Origin: Burkholderiales bacterium
Lineage (GTDB): Bacteria > Pseudomonadota > Gammaproteobacteria > Burkholderiales > Burkholderiaceae
Assembly: GCA_018971155.1 (NCBI GenBank)
Contig: JAGXBI010000004.1
Coordinates: 1-34,453 of the forward strand
Direction: 5' to 3'
Length of the DNA: 34,453 bases
The stretch's first letter is position 1; every line of letters begins with the position of its first letter. Shown here one piece after another: positions 12,312 through 15,169 of the stretch. The position numbers and the translations under genes were made by a program. A model generated the notes under the pieces. The model was not told the DNA's origin and ran no database searches. It worked only from the letters and a program-made list of their open reading frames with translations.

Positions 12312-12950
12312 TTATCGGAGTCCAGCTATGTAGTCGGCTACAGCCTGGATTTCCTTGGTCGTCAAACGCGAGGCTATATCGTGCATCGGCACGCTGTTCA
12401 TGCGAGTACCTTCGCGAAAGGCCACCAACTGCGTTTGCGTGTATTCGGCCCATTGGCCGCCCAAGCGAGGATACTGGGTCGGAATGCCGGCTCCCGTGGG
12501 TCCGTGACAGGCCGCGCAAGCGGGAACCCCTTTCTCCGCAATGCCGCCACGGAAAATCTTCTGGCCCAGCGGCACGGTGCTCTTGTCGGTCGCAAACCCC
12601 GGCTTTTCCTTTTGCGAGGCGAAGTAAGCGGCGACATTTTGCATGTCCTGGTCGGACAGCGCGGAGGCCATTCCCATCATGATCGCGTTATTGCGAGCGT
12701 GGGATTTGAATTCCTTGAGCTGTTTGTAGAGGTACGCCGCGTGCTGTCCTGCGAGTTTCGGATAGGTTCCCACGGCGCTATTGCCGTCAGCCCCGTGGCA
12801 GGCCGCGCAAACTTGAGTGGCAATTGCCTGCCCTCGGTTGAGATCGGGTTTGGCTGGCGGCTGAGCGTCTGCGCCCCACGCGCTACCGGCCAAGGCGGCC
12901 AGTGTCAGTGCCAACGGTGCTATCGCCAGAAACTTCCACACTCGGTTCAT
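12312..12950 (-). CDS. Dihaem cytochrome c4
   Basis: This 212-residue exported protein has a Sec signal (hydrophobic to AWGADA, cleavage near residue 27) and two similar c-type domains. Haem sites are CAACH at 48-52 and CAACH at 145-149. Methionines in MMGMASAL and [11 protein letters not shown] are the likely sixth ligands. The AYF-spaced helix after each domain and the [13 protein letters not shown] / [13 protein letters not shown] pair mark it as cytochrome c4, an electron carrier to terminal oxidases. ATG 12950 has AGGTG 5 nt upstream; an upstream in-frame GTG is less likely. It lies next to resB-ccsB, which would mature it, and is divergent from engB. Confidence 0.93.
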
Positions 12951-13083
12951 TCGCACACCTTGTTTTGTTTTGTCGAGGAATCGGTCGTTGGAAAATTACC
13001 GCCCGGGAACATGTCTCCGCGCCCCGCAGCACTCGCCATACCCTGTCCCGCCGGTCGTCTGGGTAGGCTAAGGTTAACTTTCA

Positions 13084-13175: not shown

Positions 13176-13916
13176 ATGTCCCTATTGCATCAGGCGCGTT
13201 TTTTTACGACCGTCAATCATTTGCGCGATCTACCGCCGACCTCGGTACCCGAGGTGGCCTTCGCCGGGCGCTCCAACGCCGGCAAGTCGAGCGCACTCAA
13301 TACTTTGTGCAACCAGAAGCGTCTGGCGTTCTCAAGCAAGACGCCGGGGCGCACGCAACACATCAATTACTTCGAGATCGCCAAAGCGGAGCACATCTTC
13401 GGCTATTTGGTCGATCTGCCCGGCTACGGCTACGCGCAAGTGCCTGGTGCGGCCAAGGCTCACTGGCAGGCACTGCTCGGAGATTACCTGCGCCAGCGGC
13501 CGCAACTGCGCGGCCTCGTGCTGGTGATGGACGCGCGCCGCCCTTTTACCGAGCTCGATGAGCAGTTGATCGAATGGTTCCTGCCGACGGGGCGGCCAAT
13601 TCACGCGATTTTGACCAAGGCGGACAAGTTGACGCGACAGGAAGGTGCGCTGGCTTTGCGCAAGGCCCGCGAGACGTTTGGCCAGTACGGCCGCTCGGAC
13701 GGCTTGCCCGAAGATCATCCTGATGCGCCGCCCCAATTCACGGTGCAACTCTCTTCGTCGCTCAAACGAACCGGCATAGCGGAAGCCCAACGAATGCTCG
13801 AGCATTGGCTCGATATTCCCTCGCGCGATCAGTCAGTCGACCCGCCGGTGGCGTCGGGGGCGGCCGCGGGTGCGGTCGACGCCAGCACCGAGGGCGCGCC
13901 GAACGATGCTCAATAG
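13176..13916 (+). CDS. engB: EngB (YihA/YsxC) ribosome-biogenesis GTPase
   Basis: This 246-residue TRAFAC GTPase is needed for a late step of 50S subunit assembly. G1 is GRSNAGKSS (31-39), G3 is DLPGYGYA (80-87), G4 is TKAD (147-150) and G5 is SSSLKRTG (193-200). An insert, [16 protein letters not shown], precedes G5. The last 30 or so residues are a low-complexity Ala/Gly/Asp tail beyond the usual end of about 210-220, probably disordered. The frame is open far upstream, but the conserved N-terminus begins at ATG 13176. No obvious ribosome-binding site is visible. It is divergent from the cytochrome c4 gene. Confidence 0.95.
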
Positions 13917-13943
13917 TGTGACGCGAATCACGGCGTCTGCCCA

Positions 13944-14056
13944 CATAAAAAAACCGCCGTGTCTTACCACGGCGGCATTAAACAAGCCTTATCGTAGTCA
14001 CGACAGGCACCCGCTCAGGGAGGAGAAGCGGGGGACGCAGCACACGTGCAGCATCC
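13944..14056 (-). ncRNA. Candidate small RNA with anti-Shine-Dalgarno loop, antisense-oriented between engB and hemB
   Basis: No protein gene on the minus strand can supply the transcript ended by the strong terminator at 13946-13975, so an independent minus-strand RNA of about 110 nt is likely. Seen directly: stem CCCGCT/AGCGGG (plus positions 14010-14015 and 14027-14032) with an 11-nt loop reading UCUCCUCCCUG in the RNA, which contains CCUCC, the complement of GGAGG ribosome-binding sites. An alternative stem pairs AAGCGG at the 5' end with CCGCUU, sharing one arm with the first stem, so two folds compete. The 5' end is estimated from a promoter guess. An 18-codon Cys-rich ORF (ATG 14054) lies inside it, but its coding status is unknown. 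Confidence 0.55.
13946..13975 (-). terminator. Rho-independent terminator oriented to the minus strand
   Basis: CCGCCGTG at 13954-13961 pairs perfectly with CACGGCGG at 13968-13975. On the minus strand it is followed by T7 (plus 13947-13953 is an A tract). On the plus strand the tail is CATTAAAC with no T run, so this is built to stop minus-strand transcription rather than engB. Confidence 0.8.
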
Positions 14057-14062
14057 GCTTGA

Positions 14063-14090
14063 TATGATATACCATGCATCCGAAAGTTTC
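14063..14090 (-). promoter_or_regulatory. Possible sigma-E-like promoter for the small RNA
   Basis: On the minus strand GAAACTT (plus 14084-14090) is followed after 16 nt by TCATA (plus 14063-14067). This resembles the sigma-E pattern GGAACTT-N16-TCAAA with one mismatch in each element. A sigma-70 reading with TATCAT as -10 lacks a -35. This is weak evidence, resting on motif likeness and its position just upstream of the RNA. Confidence 0.3.
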
Positions 14091-14113
14091 TTGGAACGTC
14101 GGATCTTTGCAGT

Positions 14114-14143
14114 CGCGGATTCTCATAATCCGAGACCTTTTTT
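14114..14143 (+). terminator. Terminator-like hairpin in the hemB leader
   Basis: CGGATT at 14116-14121 pairs with AATCCG at 14127-14132 around a 5-nt loop, and T6 follows at 14138-14143. Only 24 nt remain to the hemB ATG, too few for a promoter, so the hairpin should lie inside the hemB transcript. GTCGGAT at about 14098-14104 can also pair with the 3' arm (ATCC-GAC with a 2-nt bulge), giving a competing fold. Confidence 0.5.
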
Positions 14144-14167
14144 CATGCTTTCCATAGGCGTGTCTGA

Positions 14168-15169
<1,002 letters not shown>

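Follow-up and report, generated by a model that had tools for sequence, protein, structure and literature searches.

What does the minus strand of the gap between engB and hemB encode in this Burkholderiales genome, and what controls it? We addressed this question in a window of 34,453 nt (the whole stretch of DNA that was analysed), in which a sequence-only reading had pointed to a candidate small RNA (sRNA) with an anti-Shine-Dalgarno loop. We consider it likely that this strand carries a stand-alone regulatory sRNA of the Rfam family RF02837, about 113 nt in length, which would act as an ErsA-like, sigma-E-controlled repressor. The features of the locus are given below; the 5' end of the sRNA was placed by projecting the 105-nt length of its relative ncS04 onto the B. 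ambifaria sequence.

13945..14057, minus strand: sRNA gene of the RF02837 (anti-hemB / ncS04) type; cmscan match at 13945-14035, 5' end estimated at ~14057
14084..14090, minus strand: sigma-E-type -35 element GAAACTT (motif)
14063..14067, minus strand: sigma-E-type -10 element TCATA, after a 16-nt spacer (score 9/11)
14033..14056, minus strand: 5' hairpin GGATGCTGCACGTGTGCTGCGTCC (predicted fold)
14010..14032, minus strand: hairpin 1, CCCGCT, loop TCTCCTCCCTG, AGCGGG, with the anti-Shine-Dalgarno loop (conserved loop and helix counts)
13986..14008, minus strand: hairpin 2, GCCTGTCGTGACTACGATAAGGC (Rfam alignment and fold)
13947..13975, minus strand: intrinsic terminator, 8-bp stem and T7 (stem scan)
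13176..13916, plus strand: engB (TIGR03598, 207.3 bits, cut-off 124.45), the convergent neighbour, common to loci outside the order
14168..15169, plus strand: hemB (NF006762, 513.8 bits, cut-off 297), the divergent neighbour
12312..12956, minus strand: cytochrome c gene with two haem domains (PF00034, two stretches), adjoining engB; c4-like by our own label

The HemB protein of the window shares 87% identity with its Pandoraea cepalis counterpart. The proposed RNA between engB and hemB is indeed present: cmscan assigns minus strand 13945-14035 to RF02837 (anti-hemB, "Burkholderia RNA 7") with 64.7 bits against a gathering score of 49.5 and an E-value of 4.1e-13 for the whole window. The match is full length (model positions 1-81), while its 91 nt differ from the 81 positions of the model. 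The window sRNA shares with RF02837, with ncS04 and probably with Bc7 its sequence, structure, loop and terminator, as well as its arrangement, in which one flanking gene is divergent and the other convergent; the Rfam label says Burkholderia, whereas the spread of the family is wider. Two further families, ncS54 (E 0.86) and 6C (E 8.6), also match this stretch, below gathering. The Betaproteobacteria toxic small RNA (RF02278), which had been mentioned as a possible identity, likewise combines a CU-rich hairpin with a following terminator, yet it is a different family: the window sRNA does not match it at the gathering score (50), nor is it among the three matches obtained up to E 10, and membership was rejected.

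Elsewhere in the window's genome, one copy of RF02278 is over its cut-off (L003:1501-1565, minus strand; G000:C170:1625-1689), and the same locus is a weak RF02837 match (29.8 bits). This copy lies near the RNase P RNA and has a TATAAT -10 and a weak TTGCAT -35. Another weak RF02837 match of this genome (L002, 33.5 bits), at which no Rfam family matches at gathering, was judged by eye to be a terminator stretch beside another gene and was set aside.

The relative ncS04 of Burkholderia cenocepacia is reported as a 105-nt RNA whose start was mapped by dRNA-Seq, whose 3' end was confirmed by RACE and which was seen on a Northern blot (PMC5688073); it also co-purified with Hfq (PMC4603805). The term "candidate" was therefore too modest, since the family is in Rfam and has been seen experimentally in a relative; that the element is an sRNA stands. 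These data on transcription, 3' end and Hfq binding come from a relative of the window strain. Sass et al. suggested that unpaired CU-rich segments in sRNAs of this sort may mask ribosome-binding sites; given this and the ncS04 data, neither the sRNA itself nor its likely mode of action is new.

The terminator stem CCGCCGTG/CACGGCGG was found where it had been described, with 13975-13968 pairing perfectly over 8 bp with 13961-13954, followed by T7 at 13953-13947 on the minus strand. A search of both strands of the window for perfect 8-bp stems (5 or more G/C, a loop of 3-8 nt, 6 or more T among the 7 positions that follow) returned no other. The plus side of the stem has no T run and hence does not look like an engB terminator, and there is no minus-strand gene upstream in the gap that it could serve. 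The 6-bp stem with an exposed loop upstream of it also proved to be as described: CCCGCT/AGCGGG pairs 14032-14027 with 14015-14010 around the 11-nt loop at 14026-14016. The predicted fold of the RNA reaches -52.3 kcal/mol, against -35.6 ± 3.1 for shuffled sequences (z -5.3; 0/200 shuffles).

The covariation check that had been suggested was run on 97 aligned sequences, 73 of them distinct. This set was compiled without further same-genus loci, without L173, L197, L198, L201 and L465 (no usable anchor), without L463 and L472, and without extra copies. The CTCCCT core of the loop is invariant in all 97, and the six-pair loop helix has 92.9% of its cells paired, with changes on both sides in five of the six pairs; 0/500 shuffles reach either this count or the pairing fraction, although the shuffles overstate the case for the helix because the sequences are related. 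Sliding the helix by one, two or three columns leaves no more than 52.1% of cells paired. The +3 slide also yields five double-changed pairs, and more pair types, but pairs 47.7% of cells and has a covariation score of 0.086 vs 0.182 for the helix. In a 92-row count, without L161, L167, L184 and L467 (odd loops) and L067, pairing rises to 94.7%. RNAalifold recovers hairpin 1 alone, since the terminators align poorly. A minus-strand sRNA with an anti-Shine-Dalgarno loop is supported by the RF02837 match, the fold energy and the helix counts, with ncS04 as its experimental counterpart (PMC5688073).

The 5' hairpin is readable by eye in many relatives. A second CU-rich stretch resembling CUCCCCUUU was often seen by eye in the terminator loop of relatives (for example L143, L128 and L466); the window's terminator loop is without it, and such loci are known both in and outside the order. 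In Variovorax and Polaromonas, GTGTGACAGCAAAA is found in hairpin 2.

RF02837 is over its cut-off in 240 of 299 sampled genomes of the window's family and in 245 of 399 sampled genomes of the order (GTDB Burkholderiales, which holds the Betaproteobacteria). Among 369 sampled genomes of the class the number is 21, three of them in the order and 18 outside it. None of 14 control genomes is over the cut-off, and three of these, E. coli included, match at E 0.001. Among the 80 best named hemB loci, 28 have the motif CTCCTCC within 320 nt upstream of hemB; they range from Pandoraea to Gallionella and Sideroxydans, and the Rfam model accepts all 11 such loci outside Pandoraea, Burkholderia, Paraburkholderia, Caballeronia and Cupriavidus. 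Five of the 20 genomes behind named loci (19 of which are without CTCCTCC upstream of hemB) are also over the cut-off, namely Roseateles (two matches), Variovorax, Polaromonas, Methylophilus and Sideroxydans. None of the four named gammaproteobacteria is (Marinomonas, Methylophaga, a Lysobacteraceae bacterium and NORP60), which counts against our best reading.

As to what drives the RNA, the upstream motif resembling a sigma-E promoter had been called weak, and it turned out to be better supported than this. Promoters were scored over seven -35 positions (GGAACTT) and four -10 positions (TCTnA), with a spacer of 15-17 nt and a maximum of 11, the consensus being the enterobacterial sigma-E one. 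The window's GAAACTT-N16-TCATA scores 9/11, a value reached by 2/100 shuffles, and that it scores only 9 counts against our reading. Across 118 loci (89 from the best-scoring order matches listed, 60 of these picked for family spread, plus 28 named loci and the window), 93 score at least 9 and 65 at least 10, and none does so at 9 or above on the reverse strand; the positive fraction may be lower among lower-scoring RF02837 matches. Of 475 windows drawn at random from the same loci, 12 reach 9. When the first locus of each unnamed genus is taken, 55 of 64 score at least 9, and 34 of 36 families have at least one such locus. The distance from the start of the -10 element to the CCTGA core downstream is 36-46 nt in most families and 48-62 nt in the Burkholderiaceae. 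Outside the order, 26 of 34 copies score at least 9 (reverse strand, 0/34), and a Methylophilus copy has the motif with neither hemB nor engB within 1.5 kb. The motif, at 9/11 in the window and stronger in many relatives, suggests sigma-E-class control of the window sRNA.

Since rpoH is a classic sigma-E target, its upstream regions (280 nt) served as a positive control: 16 of 18 score at least 9, against 0/18 on the reverse strand and 14/180 equal-length random stretches. The control covers these 18 regions, the window's own genome having no rpoH over the cut-off. The rpoE genes failed in the same role, with the motif within 400 nt upstream in just 3 of 15, which speaks against our reading, as does a search for the exact GGAACTT-N16/17-TCTnA, which gave 16 matches in 14 genomes and 33 for the reversed control pattern. 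Two of these 16 are RF02837 sRNAs, three rpoH and one htpX (NCBIfam); given the 33 reversed occurrences, the exact motif alone proves little.

The most serious alternative is that the RNA is indeed a trans-acting anti-Shine-Dalgarno sRNA of RF02837, but that in the window's genus it is driven by a housekeeping sigma factor, the sigma-E motif being an ancestral remnant. The sequence TATATCAT, which overlaps the motif, could be an alternative sigma-70 -10 element, and the -35 is missing in both Burkholderia loci read (L037 and L039). These two loci are among the motif exceptions in the set of 118, together with f18, f49 and part of f5; the motif is likewise missing at the Roseateles, Variovorax and Polaromonas loci (L477, L479 and L480), in all three of which the RNA still adjoins hemB. 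Expression of ncS04 was also reported as unchanged in seven conditions: biofilm, stationary phase, starvation, glucose medium, osmotic stress, low pH and low iron (PMC5688073, Table 2). The possible sigma-70 element, the Burkholderia, f49 and other motif-free loci, and the flat expression all count against sigma-E control. Against the housekeeping alternative, GAAACTT-N16-TCATA is identical in the window and three named Pandoraea (L036, L038 and L043), the rpoH genes of the same-genus genomes G072 and G031 carry GAAACTT-N16-TCTAA with the same -35 variant, and a consensus scan of 13900-14200 found no sigma-70 pair. On balance, we regard housekeeping control as unlikely. Further RF02837-like copies occur elsewhere in Roseateles without the motif; Roseateles has five matches, two of them over the cut-off. 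In favour of our reading, the 105-nt length of ncS04, projected onto B. ambifaria, puts its start ~6 nt after a -10-like element. RybB is a sigma-E-dependent RNA, and a review describes Bc7, probably the same RNA as ncS04, with RybB as its homologue (PMC6321483), which likewise speaks for our reading.

The Rfam name anti-hemB implies another alternative, in which the RNA regulates hemB in cis as a leader antisense or by promoter interference. The review on Bc7 names hemB as a predicted target (PMC6321483), and in the window the sRNA is divergent from hemB, with ~110 bp between the estimated start and the hemB start codon. Complementarity to the hemB leader is nonetheless at chance level (64/200 shuffles are as good), and 20 loci outside the order show no hemB match within 3 kb; cis action was rejected on the former ground and strikes us as very improbable. 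Least credible of all is the RNA switch proposed between the loop hairpin and a second fold, AAGCGG with CCGCUU, the complementary arms of which do exist, because AAGCGG (14060-14055, minus strand) straddles the estimated start (~14057) at about -3 to +3, so that only part of it would be transcribed, because the three named Pandoraea carry AACCGG there, and because the predicted fold spends the region on the 5' hairpin.

The position beside engB bears on whether the RNA has known kin. ErsA of P. aeruginosa is reported to lie between polA and engB and to depend on sigma-22 (PMC8575079, PMC7565897), a sigma-E homologue, and to repress the porin mRNA oprD in an Hfq-dependent manner (PMC7565897, PMC8575079, PMC7264166, PMC8395346). 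The window sRNA lies beside engB as ErsA (RF01719, Pseudomon-1/ErsA) does, whereas its other neighbour is hemB and that of ErsA is polA; RF01719 (gathering 50) does not match the window up to E 10. The Xanthomonas RNA sX13 is reported downstream of polA, with C-rich hairpin loops acting on G-rich sites near start codons and independence from Hfq (PMC3771888). Its loops are thus akin to that of the window sRNA, while its Hfq-independence differs, and sX13 (RF02232, gathering 50) also has no window match up to E 10. In E. coli the order is polA, spf (Spot 42, RF00021) and yihA/engB, with spf convergent with engB, as is the window sRNA; the Spot 42 region has no RF02837 match at gathering score, and Spot 42 is reported to regulate carbon-metabolism targets (PMC3771888).

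The 20 loci outside the order were picked from class matches with tandem copies preferred, and 12 of them hold an over-cut-off match. Sixteen lie within 3 kb of polA and/or engB (eight both, three polA alone, five engB alone, four neither), including 9 of the 12 over-cut-off loci and 7 of the 8 others. A relative of the window's cytochrome c gene occurs in nine of the 20, and in seven of those nine engB stands between it and the RNA, in the window's order and orientation. Tandem copies, two to four per locus and many of them below the cut-off, occur in nine outside-order loci. The four-copy array of L471 matches sX13 at 48.3 bits (E 3e-6; gathering 50), ErsA at 37.1 (8e-4) and ar14 at 38.0 (0.001), all sub-gathering. 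ErsA is further matched by L466 (30.3 bits, E 0.06) and L459 (30.0 bits, E 0.07), sX13 by L462 and ar14 by L465 (E 0.3-0.4), and RF02278 and suhB by L461 (E about 0.1), so that the cross-matches are spread over several CU-rich families; 0/18 loci of the window's own order match ErsA or sX13 up to E 0.5.

At L471:3001-3739, L472:3001-3723 and L473:3001-3623, three to four RF02837-like sRNAs, below gathering, stand in tandem beside polA, those of L471 and L473 also beside engB, and most copies have their own sigma-E-type motif. Two copies in another place, less than 2 kb from a tmRNA gene, were seen at L461 and L463:3001-3272, where neither polA nor engB is matched within 3 kb.

Kinship with ErsA is suggested by the place, the type of promoter and the loop, together with these weak cross-matches, and in our best reading the window sRNA would be to the Betaproteobacteria what ErsA is to Pseudomonas in its position, its kind of promoter and its design. 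We lean, if only slightly, towards a broader view in which one old sRNA superfamily, fixed at the engB/polA locus in the beta-/gammaproteobacterial ancestor, has RF02837, ErsA, sX13 and perhaps ar14 as its branches. Its founding RNA would be of the anti-Shine-Dalgarno type and under sigma-E control, and it would sometimes be found as a tandem array of two to four copies, most of them with a promoter motif of their own. No paper linking RF02837 to sigma-E or ErsA was found in the open-access PubMed Central literature.

Under the mechanism that we propose, envelope stress would lead RNA polymerase with an RpoE-type sigma factor to transcribe the sRNA along with rpoH. With Hfq, the RNA would then present UCUCCUCCCUG, which may pair with GGGAGG-like ribosome-binding sites and so block translation of a set of mRNAs. 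Targets were sought as TCAGGGAGG before ATG in 20 genomes. Two of the five matches in G011 are porins, and a porin test was therefore made with all 16 porins of G072 and 24 of the 35 porin matches of G011 (L435 being dropped for its doubtful start), against a codon-position-filtered background. The G011 porin sites pair better with the loop than the background does (23 vs 108, p 0.001), and 11/200 permuted loops do as well. Those of G072, which is of the window's genus, do not (16 vs 98, p 0.41), which counts against our best reading. A recurrent 66-aa frame among the TCAGGGAGG matches lies, by our reading, out of frame in rsmH and was discarded.

That the sigma-E response has an sRNA arm is well established in enterobacteria and, through ErsA, in Pseudomonas. 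If RF02837 belongs to this arm, a catalogued RNA would gain a regulator, a probable mechanism and a role that can be tested across a large part of the Betaproteobacteria. This would also bear on a question raised in the sX13 paper, namely whether related sRNAs exist at the polA locus of other bacteria (PMC3771888). Should the superfamily hold true, RF02837 would form the betaproteobacterial branch of the envelope-stress response, and its name "anti-hemB" would be a misnomer.
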